Positions 55,699 through 62,378 of a stretch of 64,000 nucleotides of DNA are shown here, in pieces. The number at the start of each line of letters is the position of its first letter. Positions within the stretch are counted from its first letter, which is position 1. Both the position numbers and the translations under genes were made by a program. Under the pieces are notes generated by a model. It worked only from the letters and a program-made list of their open reading frames with translations. It searched no databases and had not been told where the DNA came from. The stretch is from Chloroflexaceae bacterium (GTDB lineage Bacteria; Chloroflexota; Chloroflexia; Chloroflexales; Chloroflexaceae): the NCBI GenBank assembly GCA_025057155.1, contig JANWYD010000005.1, positions 217,868 through 281,867 on the forward strand, in the 5' to 3' direction.

Positions 55699-58503
55699 AT
55701 GATAAGGATCGAAGACATGCGACGGGCCTATCAGCGCCCGGTGGCCGAAGTGCTCGCGGCGCTGGGGGTTGACCCTGCGCGCGGATTGGACCCCGCTGAA
55801 GCCCGGGCGCGTTTCGAGCGCTACGGGCGCAACGAGTTGCCCGAGGCCCCGCCGCCGCCCCTCTGGCTGCGTTTTCTGGCCCAGTTTCGCGATCCGTTGA
55901 CCGGGTTGCTGCTGGCGGCCACGCTGATTTCATTCGCGGTCTGGCTGATCGAGCGTGCCGATCCGCTCCCCTTCGAAGCCCTGACCATCCTGGCCATCGT
56001 GCTGCTGAACGGTGTGCTGGGATTCGTGCAGGAGAGCCGCGCCGAGCAGGCCGTGGCGGCCCTGCGTGTTCTGGCCGCGCCTCAGGCCCGCGTGCTGCGC
56101 GGCGGGCGCCCACAGACGATTCCTGCCGCCGAGGTTGTGCCTGGCGATATTTTGCTGATCGAAGAGGGCGATACCGTGCCTGCGGATGCCCGCATTATCG
56201 AGTCGATCGCCCTGCGGGTTGCCGAGGCGGTGCTGACCGGCGAAAGCGCCAGCGTCAGTAAGGACAGCGACCCGATCAAGGCTGAGGTGACCCTCCCTGA
56301 CCGCCACAATATGCTCTTTAGCGGCACGGCGGTGGCTTCGGGCCGGGGGCGCGCCGTGGTGACCGCCACCGGCCAGCACACTGAAATTGGCAAGATCGCC
56401 GGCACGCTGCAACACACCGAGAGTGAACCAACGCCGTTGCAGAACGAACTGGCGCGGGTGGGCCGCTTTCTCGGCGCCGCAGTGATCGCCATTGCCGTGG
56501 TGATGAGCGTAACGCTGATCCTGGTCAGTGGCGCCCGACGCCTGGGTGATCTGGTGGACGTGCTGATCCTGGGAGTCAGCCTGGCGGTCGCAGCCGTGCC
56601 TGAGGGGCTGACCGCGATCACCACGATTGTGCTCTCCCTGGGCATGCAGCGCATGGCCGGGCGCAACGTGATCGTCCGCAGGCTCGCGTCGGTCGAAACG
56701 CTCGGCTCGACCACGGTGATTTGCACGGACAAGACTGGCACGCTCACCCGCAATGAGATGACCGTGCGGGCTGTGGTAACCCCCAGCGGCCGGGTGAGTC
56801 TCGACGCGGAAGGCGAAGGGACGGGAGGGACGCTGAACATAGATGGCCGGCCCATGAGCGATCCGGCGCTGCGGGAGGAGGTGCGGAAGGCGCTGCGCGC
56901 GGCCCATATGGCCAACAATGCGCGGCTGGTTCAAGAGAACGGGCGCCTGGTCATTCGCGGCGACCCGACTGAGGGCGCCTTGCTGCTGGCGGCGCGCCGG
57001 GTGGGCCTGACCGACGATGAGTTGGATGAGCGGTTTCCGCGGGTGGGCGAGGTGCCCTTCACCTCGGAGCGTAAGCTGATGAGCACCGCCCACGTTGACC
57101 AGGAGAAGGAGCGCCTGATCGTCTTCACCAAAGGCGCGCCTGATATTCTACTGGCCCGCTGCGACTATGAACGTGTCGGGCTGGAGGGAGAGGTGCGTTC
57201 ATTAACTGCGGAACGCCGGCGCGAGATCCTGGCCTGCATCGAGGAACTGGCCGACCAGGCCCTGCGCACCCTCGGAGTGGCCTACCGCACGCTGGCGCGC
57301 GACGCGGCCAGCGGCCAGTTCAGTGAGGACGTCGAACGGTCGCTGGTCTTCCTGGGGGTGCTGGGGCTGATTGACCCGCTGCGCCCCGAGGCGCGCCAAT
57401 CGGTAGCGCAGGCGAAACGGGCGGGCATCCGCCCGATTATGATCACCGGCGACCATCCGCGCACCGCCGCCGCCATCGCCGCCGAGGCTGGCATCGGCGC
57501 GCCTGGCCAGTCGGCGATGACCGGCAGCGCCTTGCAGCAGATGGACGACGCTGAACTTCGGCGCGTTCTGGGCGCGTGTTCGGTCTTTGCGCGGGTGGCC
57601 CCGGAACACAAGTTGCGCCTGGTGCGGGCGCTCAAAGCTGACGGCGCGATCGTGGCCATGACCGGTGACGGGGTCAATGATGCCCCGGCGCTCAAGGCGG
57701 CAGACATCGGTGTGGCCATGGGCATTACCGGCACCGATGTGAGCAAGGGCGCCGCCGATATGATCCTGACCGACGACAATTTCGCCTCCATCGTCGCAGC
57801 GGTGGAGGAGGGCCGTTCGATCTTTGCCAACATTCAGAAGTTTCTGCGCTACCTGCTTTCCTCAAACATCGGCGAAGTGCTGACGATGTTCGGCGGAGTG
57901 ACGCTGGCGTCCGTGATCGGGTTGACGCACGGCGAGGGCACGCTACTGGTGGCGCCCCTGCTGGCCACGCAGATCCTCTGGATCAACCTGCTGACCGACG
58001 CCGCGCCCGCTCTGGCCCTGGGTCTCGAACCGGCCGACCCGCAGGTGATGGAGCGTCCGCCCCGCGACCCCCGCACGCCGGTGATCACCAGGCAGATGTG
58101 GTTCAACATTTTTTTTGCGGGCTTGATTATGGCCGTCGGCACCCTGGCGGTGATGGATGCGGCCCTTCCCGGCGGCCTGATTGCCGGGACAGGGGATCTG
58201 GCCTATGCCCAGACGATGAGCTTCACCACCCTGGTGTTGTTCCAGTTGTTTAACGTCCTGAATGCCCGTTCAGATGAGCGGAGCGCCTTTTACCGCTTTT
58301 TCGGCAACCCCTGGTTGTGGGGCGCGGTGGGGCTGTCGTTCGTGTTGCAGGCGCTGGTGGTGTACCTGCCCGCCCTGCAGCGGCCGTTCAATACCGTGCC
58401 GCTGAGCCTGAACGACTGGGTGGTCTGTGTGGGAGTCGCCAGCAGCGTGCTCTGGCTGGGAGAGGCGCGCAAGCTCATCGCGCGGCTGCGGCGACAAGGG
58501 TAG
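55699..58503 (+). CDS. P2-type cation-transporting ATPase (calcium-pump-like)
   Basis: A 934-aa membrane pump with the cation N-terminal domain (AYQRPVAEVLAALGVDPARGLDPAEARARFERYGRNELPE), TGES (residues 180-183), the M4 motif VAAVPEGL, the phosphorylation motif ICTDKTGTLTRNE (Asp344), KGAPDILLARC, GDHPRTAAAIAAEAGI and MTGDGVNDAPALKAADIGVAMGITGTDVSKGAADMILTDDNF. Six C-terminal helices include the M5/M6 region NIGEVLTMFGG and ILWINLLTDAAPALALGLEP; the NLLTDAAPAL segment resembles Ca2+-ATPases of bacteria and SERCA, and the PEGL in M4 agrees. It probably exports Ca2+ at the expense of ATP. The 3' end overlaps the convergent alpha/beta hydrolase gene by 29 bp. Confidence 0.95.
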   Translation: MIRIEDMRRAYQRPVAEVLAALGVDPARGLDPAEARARFERYGRNELPEAPPPPLWLRFLAQFRDPLTGLLLAATLISFAVWLIERADPLPFEALTILAIVLLNGVLGFVQESRAEQAVAALRVLAAPQARVLRGGRPQTIPAAEVVPGDILLIEEGDTVPADARIIESIALRVAEAVLTGESASVSKDSDPIKAEVTLPDRHNMLFSGTAVASGRGRAVVTATGQHTEIGKIAGTLQHTESEPTPLQNELARVGRFLGAAVIAIAVVMSVTLILVSGARRLGDLVDVLILGVSLAVAAVPEGLTAITTIVLSLGMQRMAGRNVIVRRLASVETLGSTTVICTDKTGTLTRNEMTVRAVVTPSGRVSLDAEGEGTGGTLNIDGRPMSDPALREEVRKALRAAHMANNARLVQENGRLVIRGDPTEGALLLAARRVGLTDDELDERFPRVGEVPFTSERKLMSTAHVDQEKERLIVFTKGAPDILLARCDYERVGLEGEVRSLTAERRREILACIEELADQALRTLGVAYRTLARDAASGQFSEDVERSLVFLGVLGLIDPLRPEARQSVAQAKRAGIRPIMITGDHPRTAAAIAAEAGIGAPGQSAMTGSALQQMDDAELRRVLGACSVFARVAPEHKLRLVRALKADGAIVAMTGDGVNDAPALKAADIGVAMGITGTDVSKGAADMILTDDNFASIVAAVEEGRSIFANIQKFLRYLLSSNIGEVLTMFGGVTLASVIGLTHGEGTLLVAPLLATQILWINLLTDAAPALALGLEPADPQVMERPPRDPRTPVITRQMWFNIFFAGLIMAVGTLAVMDAALPGGLIAGTGDLAYAQTMSFTTLVLFQLFNVLNARSDERSAFYRFFGNPWLWGAVGLSFVLQALVVYLPALQRPFNTVPLSLNDWVVCVGVASSVLWLGEARKLIARLRRQG

Positions 58504-59332
58504 CGCGCTCGACGCCGGCAAGGAAACCCAGCAGCAGGCCATGGAAGGCGCGCGCCGCCTCGATCTGGGGGAAGTGGCCGCAGCGCGGGAATACGACCAG
58601 GCGCGCGCCGGGAATGGCCAGCGCCCGCTGACTGGTCTCCAGGGGAAAGACCTGATCGGCTTCGCCCCAGACCAACAGGGTAGGCGCGCGCAGTTCGCCA
58701 AGGCGGTCGCGGAGGCCGGTGCGCCCCAGGTCGGTGGCGTCGTAGCGACGGCTGAGGGCGGTTAGAGCGCGGCGGTTATCGGCGCCGATGAGGGCCGCCC
58801 GGCCCCGTTCGAGGATCTCGGCGGTGAGGTGGCGTTCAGGGGCGTAGAAAGCGGCGCTGAGCATGGCCCGCACCACTGCCGGCCGGGCGGAGAGCCAGAG
58901 CAACGCCGGGCCGACGAGCGGCCAGCCGCCGGCCCGTGTCAGGGGCGAGGGTTCGCTGAAGCCGTCGCTATCCACCAGGGTGAGGCTGCGCACGGCGGAG
59001 GGGTGCAGCAGGGCCGTGGCGATGGCGTATTTGCCTCCCATCGAGTGGGCCACTATGTGCGCTGCTCCCATACCGAGGCGCTCGATCAGCCGGGCATAGA
59101 GCCGGGCCGACAGTTCCAGCGAGTAGGGCGCGTCGGCGGGTTTATCGGAGCGCCCGAAGCCCAACCCGTCAACGGCGATGGCGCGATACCCTGCCCGCGC
59201 CAGCAGCCGGCCCGTCGGGCGCCACTCTTCAGATGAGCCGGCAAAGCCGTGCAGCAATAGCACGGCGGGGCCGTGACCGGCTTCGAGCAGGTGCAGCCGG
59301 TAGCCGTCAATGGTGATAAACTGGCTGTGCAT
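58475..59332 (-). CDS. Alpha/beta-fold hydrolase
   Basis: A 285-aa cytosolic hydrolase. The oxyanion-hole segment VLLLHGFAGSSEEW, the nucleophile elbow IVAHSMGGKYAIA, LLVWGEADQVFPL with the catalytic Asp and FPRCGHFPQIE with the catalytic His are all present, so it should be active. A cap domain lies between about 130 and 205. The substrate cannot be deduced; similar proteins hydrolyse esters, epoxides or C-C bonds. ATG 59332 is chosen over the longer frame, which runs into repeat-rich sequence. It is convergent with, and overlaps, the P-type ATPase gene. Confidence 0.93.
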   Translation of the reverse strand: MHSQFITIDGYRLHLLEAGHGPAVLLLHGFAGSSEEWRPTGRLLARAGYRAIAVDGLGFGRSDKPADAPYSLELSARLYARLIERLGMGAAHIVAHSMGGKYAIATALLHPSAVRSLTLVDSDGFSEPSPLTRAGGWPLVGPALLWLSARPAVVRAMLSAAFYAPERHLTAEILERGRAALIGADNRRALTALSRRYDATDLGRTGLRDRLGELRAPTLLVWGEADQVFPLETSQRALAIPGARLVVFPRCGHFPQIEAARAFHGLLLGFLAGVERATLVAAAAR

Positions 59333-59482
59333 GGGTGGAGGATTCGCTCTCGGGGGGTTGGTTTCATCTCGTTCTATTAGATTGTACCAGATGCCTATAG
59401 GCGTTCGCCTCCCAACACGGGACGAAACGAGGCGTTCCTGGGAGGCCATGCCCTACCAGATCCTCCCCTCAGGCAGGGGCGT

Positions 59483-59510
59483 GGGGAAACCCGGTTTCCC
59501 CATCCCCCTC
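59483..59510. repeat. Dispersed palindromic repeat family B, consensus-like copy
   Basis: GGGGAAACCCGGTTTCCCC is a near-perfect palindrome followed by the ATCCCCCTC tail. It is in the 337-bp gap 59333-59669, which also carries an inverted family A copy at 59533-59569. No gene in this gap is supported. Confidence 0.7.
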
Positions 59511-59669: not shown

Positions 59670-62378
59670 ATGGACGACCTGATCGAAGTGCTCCACACCC
59701 TTGCCCGGCAACGGGGCCGCGAGGCTGCCCCGCTGATCGCCGTGCGCCGCTTTCCGGCCCGCGACGGCGCGCGGGTCAGCCATCTGCCGGTAGACGCGCG
59801 GCTGGAGCAGGCCTGGGTGGTGGCTACCGGCGCGCCATTTCGCCCGCACCAGGCCCCGGCTCTCTCGGCGTTGCGCCGCGGCGAACCGGTGGCGTTGCAG
59901 GGCGGTCCCTCGGCCCGGCGCACATTGCCCCTTCTGGTTGCCGACTGGCTGCGCGAGGCCGGGCCGGGCACGGTGCTGGCGCTCGCGCCCGATGAGGCGG
60001 CGGGCGAGGAACTGCGCGACAACCTTGAGAAGTTGCTCCGTCAGGCGCATCCCTCGCTGCGAGTAGGGGTGGCCTGGGGCAGCGCGTCGCGGGCGGCGGC
60101 GAGCGCCCAGGTGGTCATCGCCACGCCCGCCACTCTCCACGAGCGCCTGTTGCGCTTCCACGGGCGGGCCTGGACGGCCTTCTGGTCCAGACTGGGACTG
60201 ATCGCCCTCGCCGATGCGCAGCGGTATGCCGGCCTTGCCGCCATCCATCTGGCGGGGTTGCTCAGGCGCGCGCGGCGGCTGGCCGGCGGACCGCAGCCGC
60301 CGCGCCTGGTGGCCACGCTCGCTCCGGTGCTGGGGGCCGCCGAGGCCCTGGCAGCGATCAGCGGCGATGCCTGGCGGGTGATCGCCGCCGATGACATGCC
60401 TCGTCCCGCGTCCGCGCTGGCTCTCTGGCGCGCTCCGGCTGAGCGCGCGCGCGAGGCGGCGATGCTGGCCCTGGGACTGGCGCAGGCCCGTGCCCGTGTG
60501 CACCTGATCGCCGCGCCGTTCGAGGCGCCTCTGCTGCGCGGAATGATCGGCCTCGATCTGCCTGAGGTGAGTGTCGGCGCCGCGCCCCGGCCAGCGGACG
60601 CGCAGATCATCTGCGGCGTTGATTGCGCTGCCGCCAGTCTGCGGCTATGTCTGGAGAGCGCGGCCCTGACCGTCCTGCTGCTTGGGGATGAGCCTGCCGA
60701 GCGTGCTCTGACCCGTTTCGGCGAGCACGGCGACCACGCCGGGGCCGGTGTTGCCGAAAAACCTGTGCCGCTTATCGAAACGCTGCCCCACTGGATCGCC
60801 GCTCCGGTTAATGCCTATGTGGAGGCCCAGCACCTGGTCTGCGCGGCCTCGGAGTACCCGCTAGGCGCGGCGGAAGTGGCCGCCTGGGGAGCGGAGTCGC
60901 TCGTGGCGCGTCTCGAACGCAACGGGATGCTGGTGCAACTCCCTGATGCCGAGCCACTCTGGCAGCCCGGCCCGGCTGCTCAGGACCCCTACGCCGACTT
61001 TGATCTCCAGGCTGCGGCGACTGCGCCGGTCAGCATCCGCGATGAGCGGGGCGCTGCACTGGGAACGCTGAGTCTGGACGCCTTCGACCGCTGGGGCTTT
61101 CCCGGCGCCGCTCTGCCGCCCCTGCGCGGCGGTTACCGGGTACGCGAGCGCGATGAGGCCCGCCTGACCCTCACCCTGCATAGCGTACCCGAAGCGCGCC
61201 GCACGCTCCCGCTGCGCCGCTGCACAGTGCAGGTGCGCGATCGTCTCGACCAGCGCCTGATCCGCGGTCAGAGCGTGGCCTGGGGCCGGGTGGTGGTGGA
61301 TGAAGAGGTCTATGGCTTTCAGCATATCAATCCCGGCGCCGCGGTGGAGGAGCAGCGCTTCGAGCCGCCCCTGGCGGCTCGCTGGAGCGCCCCGGCGCTG
61401 TGGATCGATCTGCCCATGGCGCTCAACGCCGAACGGCAACAGCCGGGCTGGTCGCTGGTGGCCGCGCTGCCCCTGCTGACCCTCGCCAGTGCGAACGATC
61501 TTGTGCCCGCCTACGATGCCGAGGCGCAGCGGCTCTACTTCGTAGACGCCCAGCCGGGAGGCAACGGCCTCGCCGCCTGGCTCTTCGAGGTCCTCGAAGC
61601 TGTTTTGCCAACCGCCTACGAAGTGGCGCTGAACGGACGCGTCGATCCGTTGCTAAAAACGGCCGCCCGGGCCGATATGGACTGGATGCTGGCGCTGCTG
61701 GGTGGAGTGACGCCGGCGCCGGTCGAACGATCTCGCGAACCGGTCACGCCCGAGTTGCCCCTGCGACACGAAGCGCCCCGCCACGAGGCCCCGTTCGCCG
61801 CGACGACCCCGGTGGAGGCGTCACTGATCTGGTCCGAGCCGCAGGCGCCGGATAAGCCTCCCCCGCGGCGCAAGGCGACCCGCGCGGGCGCCGCCGCCTC
61901 GGAGAGAGCGACGCCGGAAGGACCGGATCAACGGCCCGCGCCGCGGCGGCGCGAGTCGTCGGCCTCCGCCGCGCGGGAGGAGCGTCCGGCGCGGCGCAAA
62001 GCCCCATCTGCGCCGCCGGAGGCGTCCACGGATCGACGCCAGCCGCCTCCGCCGGCGCCCTCTGCCAGCGAGGAGGCTGTGCCACCCGTCACGGCCGATC
62101 CCGCCGAACTGGCGGCGCGGTTGCGCGCGATGCGCGCCCAACGCCAGCAAGGGGGCGCTCCGCGGGCGCCAGGACCGGTGTCGGGTGGCGAGCCACGCTT
62201 CCGCCCCGGGGATAGCATTGTCTGCGTCCCCCATGGGCCTGGCACGGTGGTGGCGAGCCGGGTTGAAGACGGGCGCGAGATTCTGCGGGTTCGGTTCGCT
62301 GGCCTTGGCGAGTTGATGGTTGACGCCTCGGTGAACCTGGTGCGCCTGGCCGAGGACAATGCGCCGGGCGAAGCGTAG
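59670..62378 (+). CDS. Degenerate MrfA/DUF1998-type helicase-like protein with C-terminal CarD/Tudor-like domain
   Basis: A 902-aa protein. Residues about 45-350 follow the order of a superfamily 2 helicase of the MrfA/YprA type (APFRPHQAPALSALRRGEPVALQGGP), but the Walker A Gly-Lys-Thr is replaced (GGPSARRTL near residue 77) and the DExH box by ADAQ (181-184), so ATP hydrolysis is unlikely. The C-terminal DUF1998-like part has GRVVVDEEVYGFQHINPGA and YFVDAQPGGNGLAAWLFEVLE, but no zinc-binding Cys cluster. A Pro/Arg-rich linker (about 685-840) leads to a small beta barrel (about 843-902: FRPGDSIVCVPHGPGTVVAS, LRVRFAGLGELMVDAS) like CarD or the Tudor end of UvrD. It may be a non-catalytic RNA-polymerase or DNA-repair scaffold. 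ATG 59670 is favoured by the promoter. The carboxylase gene starts 12 bp later. Confidence 0.75.
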   Translation: MDDLIEVLHTLARQRGREAAPLIAVRRFPARDGARVSHLPVDARLEQAWVVATGAPFRPHQAPALSALRRGEPVALQGGPSARRTLPLLVADWLREAGPGTVLALAPDEAAGEELRDNLEKLLRQAHPSLRVGVAWGSASRAAASAQVVIATPATLHERLLRFHGRAWTAFWSRLGLIALADAQRYAGLAAIHLAGLLRRARRLAGGPQPPRLVATLAPVLGAAEALAAISGDAWRVIAADDMPRPASALALWRAPAERAREAAMLALGLAQARARVHLIAAPFEAPLLRGMIGLDLPEVSVGAAPRPADAQIICGVDCAAASLRLCLESAALTVLLLGDEPAERALTRFGEHGDHAGAGVAEKPVPLIETLPHWIAAPVNAYVEAQHLVCAASEYPLGAAEVAAWGAESLVARLERNGMLVQLPDAEPLWQPGPAAQDPYADFDLQAAATAPVSIRDERGAALGTLSLDAFDRWGFPGAALPPLRGGYRVRERDEARLTLTLHSVPEARRTLPLRRCTVQVRDRLDQRLIRGQSVAWGRVVVDEEVYGFQHINPGAAVEEQRFEPPLAARWSAPALWIDLPMALNAERQQPGWSLVAALPLLTLASANDLVPAYDAEAQRLYFVDAQPGGNGLAAWLFEVLEAVLPTAYEVALNGRVDPLLKTAARADMDWMLALLGGVTPAPVERSREPVTPELPLRHEAPRHEAPFAATTPVEASLIWSEPQAPDKPPPRRKATRAGAAASERATPEGPDQRPAPRRRESSASAAREERPARRKAPSAPPEASTDRRQPPPPAPSASEEAVPPVTADPAELAARLRAMRAQRQQGGAPRAPGPVSGGEPRFRPGDSIVCVPHGPGTVVASRVEDGREILRVRFAGLGELMVDASVNLVRLAEDNAPGEA

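Follow-up and report, generated by a model that had tools for sequence, protein, structure and literature searches.

The locus and its domain layout

The window, a 64,000-nucleotide stretch (positions 217868-281867, contig C5) of the 5.1 Mb genome of a Chloroflexaceae bacterium, carries on its forward strand a 902-aa open reading frame at 59670-62378, whose ATG start coincides with that of orthologues L010 and L011 in alignment. We refer to the encoded protein as a pseudohelicase. Its parts are arranged as follows.

59670..62378, + strand: entire pseudohelicase gene, 902 aa plus stop (ORF, orthologue alignment and distribution)
59790..60419, + strand: RecA1-like domain, residues 41-250 (phmmer and hmmsearch against 6znp; alternating alpha/beta in the model, pLDDT about 65-80)
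59901..59927, + strand: degenerate Walker A motif GGPSARRTL, residues 78-86 (catalytic lysine gone in 53/53 orthologues)
60123..60173, + strand: motif Ib region, TPxxLHxRLLRxHxRAW (P, L and H kept; R162 and R166 newly constrained; W172 just 3' of it)
60210..60221, + strand: degenerate DExH motif, here ADAQ, residues 181-184 (motif II aspartate gone in 53/53)
60420..60794, + strand: shortened RecA2 remnant, residues 251-375 (hhalign against intact paralogues; column counts)
60795..60923, + strand: winged-helix region of the HRQ1/MrfA type (Pfam WHD_HRQ1 in 50/53 members at E<=0.1)
60957..61454, boundaries approximate, + strand: beta-rich region placed like the MrfA OB/connector 'canopy' (profile alignment to 6znp; strands in a low-confidence model)
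61455..61625, + strand: MZB/DUF1998-like domain (fold signature PGGxG retained; zinc cysteines lost)
61722..62198, + strand: low-complexity linker rich in Pro, Ala, Arg and Glu (orthologue linkers 47-805 aa, median 198)
62097..62150, + strand: short basic helix-like linker motif DPAELAARLRAMRAQRQQ (consensus DxxAMIARLRRLREQRE; about 30-40 aa N-terminal of the Tudor domain)
62193..62348, + strand: C-terminal Tudor domain, a predicted UvrD/PcrA-like five-strand barrel (AF2, Foldseek and profile comparisons)

The 'canopy' name for the OB/connector domain of MrfA is taken from the main text of a survey of the YprA family (PMC12458937). The best conserved block of the protein lies in the winged helix and reads NAYVxAQHLxCAAxExPL. 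Divergent from the pseudohelicase is an alpha/beta-hydrolase-like gene (58475-59449, - strand), and eight Chloroflexaceae loci preserve this pairing. Upstream of the pseudohelicase gene, in intergenic DNA, lies an inverted repeat at 59475-59509, of 17 nt with a 1-nt spacer and 88% complementarity, by its appearance a repeat element or a hairpin.

Helicase descent and loss of the motor

The original prediction recognized the domain order of MrfA/YprA helicases in this protein, and profile searches against DUF1998 and helicase families bear this out. The single window sequence matches the NCBI DECH helicase model TIGR03817 at E=5e-27, and its sole PDB match is the YprA/MrfA structure 6znp (E=2.5e-6). 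A profile of 53 orthologues matches 6znp at E=3.2e-48 in two stretches, the RecA1 domain and then the remainder up to the MZB, and hhalign against five intact MrfA paralogues of Chloroflexales gives 1.3e-45 across 632 columns. In Pfam, the window protein matches MZB (E=1e-4) and the HRQ1 winged helix (E=7e-4) just below their cut-offs; at E<=0.1 the winged helix is matched by 50 and MZB by 49 of the 53 orthologues. The top four fold matches of an AF2 core model are the four MrfA chains (best E=3e-22); this model, made with five sequences, is a weak one (pLDDT 51), so we use its top fold match and none of its further geometry. The E-values, together with conservation across four families, exclude a chance likeness, and by these sequence comparisons the protein is a relative of MrfA along its length.

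This relative has kept some parts of the repair helicase and lost others. In common with MrfA/YprA (PDB 6znp, 6znq and 6zns) it has RecA1, a remnant of RecA2, the winged helix, the beta-rich canopy and the fold of MZB. Walker A, DExH and the zinc cysteines are gone, RecA2 is shortened and without motif VI, and a linker and Tudor domain have been added.

We read the motif columns from an alignment of the 53 orthologues with 11 intact homologues, all 11 of which carry GKT and DExH. The Walker A lysine and the motif II aspartate, each present in 11/11 intact homologues, are each found in 0/53 orthologues, in keeping with the predicted replacement of Walker A by GGPSARRTL and of DExH by ADAQ, both of which lie where they were expected. 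Arginine occupies the lysine column in 45% of orthologues, and replacements at the ATPase motifs follow no fixed pattern between families. The arginine segment of motif VI (QxxGRxGR) is gapped in about 98-100% of the pseudohelicases, and motifs IV and V are beyond recognition in the shortened RecA2. The zinc cluster was also predicted to be missing: all 53 orthologues lack its second, third and fourth cysteines through deletion, and the first position is Cys in just 43%. Orthologues with an intact Walker A or DExH motif were sought, and none was found among these 53 sequences from four families.

Other positions remain under constraint or have come under it anew. Among the positions common to pseudohelicases and intact homologues at >=88% are H157, H164, W168, H193, R200 and R203, N381, A393, E395 and P397 of the winged helix and the G630/G631/G633 loop. 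Those constrained in the pseudohelicases specifically include W49, W172, W375, W431, W572, W594, W672, R162 and R474. A randomly decaying gene would not acquire invariant tryptophans; from the alignment, these new constraints on Trp and Arg, together with the basic helix of the linker, appear to mark a new function. With its helicase ancestry, inactivated ATPase and purifying selection, the protein is almost certainly a conserved pseudohelicase.

Origin, distribution and neighbourhood

Orthologues occur in 41/41 genomes of the window's own family, Chloroflexaceae, some as fragments at contig ends, and in 59/60 genomes sampled across four families of Chloroflexales; the lone genome without one is 76% complete. 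Profile scores are at least 630 bits inside the order and at most 121 bits outside it, at class and phylum level, and all six matches outside the order that we checked are intact MrfA-type proteins. In a tree made with a quick method and SH-aLRT support only, a fully supported split divides the 53 pseudohelicases from every intact protein. The pseudohelicase tree fits the four families with the minimum number of changes, and therefore points to a single origin followed by vertical descent: as judged from these sequences, the pseudohelicase arose once, before the Chloroflexales families split.

Active MrfA is patchy in the same order, being present in 16/60 genomes and in 0/23 of those sampled from the window's family, and thus the dead protein is not simply the partner of a living paralogue. 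Another member of the window's family beyond those 23, G029, carries an intact MrfA copy (L077). Several other lineages have active MrfA, and a second YprA-like helicase, more distant, is found in G041, G046 and G049.

Compared with three congeneric relatives, the gene as a whole has dN/dS of 0.21, 0.24 and 0.36, and its Tudor domain 0.04-0.28, by a simple Nei-Gojobori estimate at dS of 0.5-1.0. These values indicate that the gene is not decaying. Purifying selection, vertical inheritance and near-universal presence in the order agree with the proposal that this is a structural or regulatory protein and not a decaying gene. At one locus, G034:C1 (L035), the reading frame of the pseudohelicase is interrupted some 560 residues in, and 26 kb off on the same strand there is a Tudor-type tail (G034:C1:198072-198608); this is possibly a rearrangement or an assembly error.

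Gene neighbours vary by genus, and no partner gene is conserved order-wide among the neighbourhoods compared. Seven genomes, all from one genus with small genomes, carry an adjacent, co-directional ssb gene downstream (L058, L064, L055, L059, L060, L063 and L074; for example L064:2516-3271, - strand), and in L064 the ssb and pseudohelicase frames overlap. This linkage is suggestive but amounts to one evolutionary event limited to one genus. On the other side of the pseudohelicase, these loci carry a signal-recognition-particle-type GTPase gene on the opposite strand. An inositol-phosphatase-like gene follows the pseudohelicase in the Herpetosiphon-like family (f3), and in L067, L068 and L080 of genus g4 a gene for 335-349 aa overlaps or abuts its 3' end, with the L068 copy matching a BTAD domain. 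The neighbours examined are ordinary metabolic and housekeeping genes; no defence genes were identified among them, and PADLOC matched the window protein to 0 families.

The Tudor domain and a candidate scaffold role

Members of all four families carry the C-terminal barrel, in which F, G, C, G and G are invariant, and AF2 predicts five strands at pLDDT 86.5. Foldseek ranks 1-4 are 7egs (UvrD CTD with RNA polymerase), 5dma (PcrA Tudor), 7egt (UvrD CTD with UvrB) and 9dqs (UvrD1 Tudor), at TM 0.69-0.72 by query and none with E <0.001; CarD, CdnL and Mfd come next. The structure predictions that were called for thus yielded a five-strand barrel, along with the weak core model and its MrfA match. 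A CarD/Tudor-like barrel after a disordered linker had been proposed, and the barrel stands, but it is closer to the Tudor domain of UvrD/PcrA than to CarD. Sequence profiles point the same way, though weakly: PcrA_UvrD_tudor (PF21196) is matched by 8/38 members (best E=3.7e-6), the window protein not among them, and CarD_TRCF_RID (PF02559) by 7/38, with the window protein at 15.6-16.5 bits, under the curated cut-off of 23. The UvrD tail of the window's own genome aligns to the barrel by hhalign at 96%, gapless over 38 columns.

In PcrA/UvrD, a Tudor domain that follows a disordered linker contacts RNA polymerase and UvrB (PMC5397179, PMC8318588). The pseudohelicase has the same predicted five-strand barrel in the same place (compared with 5dma, 7egs, 7egt and 9dqs), but on a dead, MrfA-derived SF2 body in place of an SF1 motor, and its own domain in the window protein is without a Pfam match. 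The PcrA residues for RNA polymerase contact are H681, W684, K712 and L714 (PMC5397179). Matched by their H-x-x-W-G spacing, without direct PcrA alignment, the H681 position is an invariant Cys and the W684 position is Tyr, His or Trp, mostly aromatic; the K712 position is probably acidic or hydrophobic, with K712 and L714 lying beyond the aligned part. The contacts appear to be kept just in part, and the docking partner may therefore differ. The fold is related as well to the CarD/CdnL N-terminal domain and the RNA-polymerase-interacting domain of Mfd, which share a GDxVxxPYGxGxV-like signature with it, but the pseudohelicase has neither the CarD C-terminal domain nor the Mfd motor.

The linker ahead of the barrel carries its basic helix motif in strict form in 27/41 sequences and, by eye, in looser form in most others including the window; the small-genome genus has it in changed form or not at all, and the remaining linker sequence varies freely. 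We take this helix-like stretch to be a putative binding motif.

Our preferred reading, which we hold tentatively and with rather less than even confidence as a whole mechanism, is that of a nucleic-acid-holding, non-motor scaffold that its Tudor domain would dock on a partner from transcription or repair. A dead helicase of the MrfA/YprA lineage would have been converted once into such a scaffold before the Chloroflexales families diverged. The MrfA-derived body may passively hold nucleic acid, most likely single-stranded DNA or an R-loop, while the Tudor domain on its flexible tether would dock the protein on its partner, with RNA polymerase beta or UvrB, as we infer, the first candidates. 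Exposed single strands at stalled transcription complexes might thereby be marked, held open or handed to UvrD, Mfd or SSB.

We favour the scaffold because of the MrfA core homology, the 53/53 ATPase loss, the single origin, near-universality and low dN/dS; because the layout of core, disordered linker and C-terminal Tudor domain matches PcrA/UvrD, whose Tudor domains are the top fold matches and, for the genome's own UvrD, align without gaps over 38 columns; because motif Ib is partly kept and new Arg and Trp positions are invariant; and because ssb lies directly downstream in seven genomes of one genus. Counting against the mechanism, RecA2, which is half of the usual DNA channel, is reduced to a remnant, the Tudor Pfam match of the window protein is sub-threshold, the PcrA contacts for RNA polymerase appear partly replaced, and the ssb linkage is a single event in one genus among neighbours that otherwise vary.

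The same protein could instead be a pure protein-protein adaptor, its helicase-derived body off nucleic acid as a structural hub recruited by the Tudor domain. Some other pseudohelicases in assemblies may serve as structural hubs, and the reduction of RecA2, the loss of motifs Ia, IV and V, and the resemblance of the newly invariant tryptophans (those named above, together with W406) to packing or interface residues all fit this possibility. Motif Ib, the Arg sites and the winged helix are DNA-facing in SF2 helicases, however, and here no block is better conserved than the winged helix, and motif Ib and several Arg rank with the most strongly conserved sites, so that we regard the adaptor as possible but doubtful. 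We consider it distinctly unlikely that the protein is a CarD-like regulator of transcription initiation or elongation, with the Tudor domain on RNA polymerase and the body on promoter or upstream DNA. CarD/CdnL N-terminal domains are among its best matches by sequence and fold, and among the long ORFs of the whole own genome (G000) the CarD_TRCF_RID cut-off is passed by one alone, which is Mfd-like and 1193 aa long; no stand-alone CarD turned up among them, and the window protein is the sole other match, a weak, sub-cut-off one. Yet the UvrD/PcrA Tudor ranks higher by fold, PF02559 falls below its cut-off in the window protein, and no promoter-opening module resembling the CarD C-terminal domain is present.

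The remaining readings are far less probable. An unorthodox ATPase, active with substituted nucleotide-binding residues, could be imagined from the arginine in the Walker A lysine column of nearly half the orthologues, but neither that lysine nor the motif II aspartate is present in any of the 53, the motif VI arginine segment is deleted in about 98%, and the replacements are not fixed between families; we reject it as highly improbable. We likewise give very little credence to a component of anti-phage defence. Many YprA-family helicases belong to such systems (DISARM, Dpd, Druantia and ARMADA, according to the survey's main text; PMC12458937), and kinship to that family is what speaks for this reading; against it, there is no PADLOC match, no defence neighbours were identified, and the pseudohelicase is near-universal and vertically inherited, whereas defence genes are patchy. 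A decaying pseudogene or assembly artefact, for which the loss of the catalytic motifs and nothing else speaks, is hardly conceivable, being ruled out by intact ORFs in dozens of independent genomes, by dN/dS of 0.21-0.36 and by near-universal presence across four families.

Helicase-derived domains have become non-motor DNA-handling scaffolds elsewhere, as in RecC/AddB and the N-terminal domain of XPF. These differ from the pseudohelicase in belonging to other superfamily branches, in being obligate parts of nuclease complexes and in having no Tudor domain. The nearest precedent in kind is PriA of Deinococcus radiodurans, reported to be a bacterial pseudohelicase whose helicase motifs were lost lineage-wide while a non-enzymatic role was kept, combining DNA binding with partner contact in the absence of ATPase activity (PMC4504706). 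It comes from another helicase family and is a dead orthologue of an active enzyme, some of whose function it has preserved, and the abstract reports no Tudor addition (PMC4504706). In the main text of the 2025 YprA family survey, neither an inactivated branch of helicases nor a fusion to a Tudor domain is mentioned (PMC12458937), and open-licence works on Chloroflexales repair and signature proteins contained nothing on the pseudohelicase. The original remark that no description of this combination is known agrees with the open-licence literature searched, in which we found no published account; within that literature, what is new is a pseudohelicase in a family where none was found described, bearing a new docking domain.

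Bacterial pseudohelicases are seldom described, and the one in the window is conserved across Chloroflexales, an order that for the most part lacks its active relative. Its body comes from one repair helicase family and its docking domain from a second, so the protein provides a means of asking what value such a scaffold has once the motor is gone. Taken further, the scaffold reading could make the protein a core, order-defining factor of Chloroflexales for transcription-coupled repair or R-loops that works without ATP, a passive single-strand clamp made of a dead MrfA body, which a UvrD-type Tudor domain would tether to RNA polymerase or UvrB and which would have substituted for MrfA where the active enzyme is missing; we offer this as a speculation that is more doubtful than the scaffold itself. 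The finding also raises the question of whether these bacteria link repair to transcription through a factor not known from E. coli and Bacillus.
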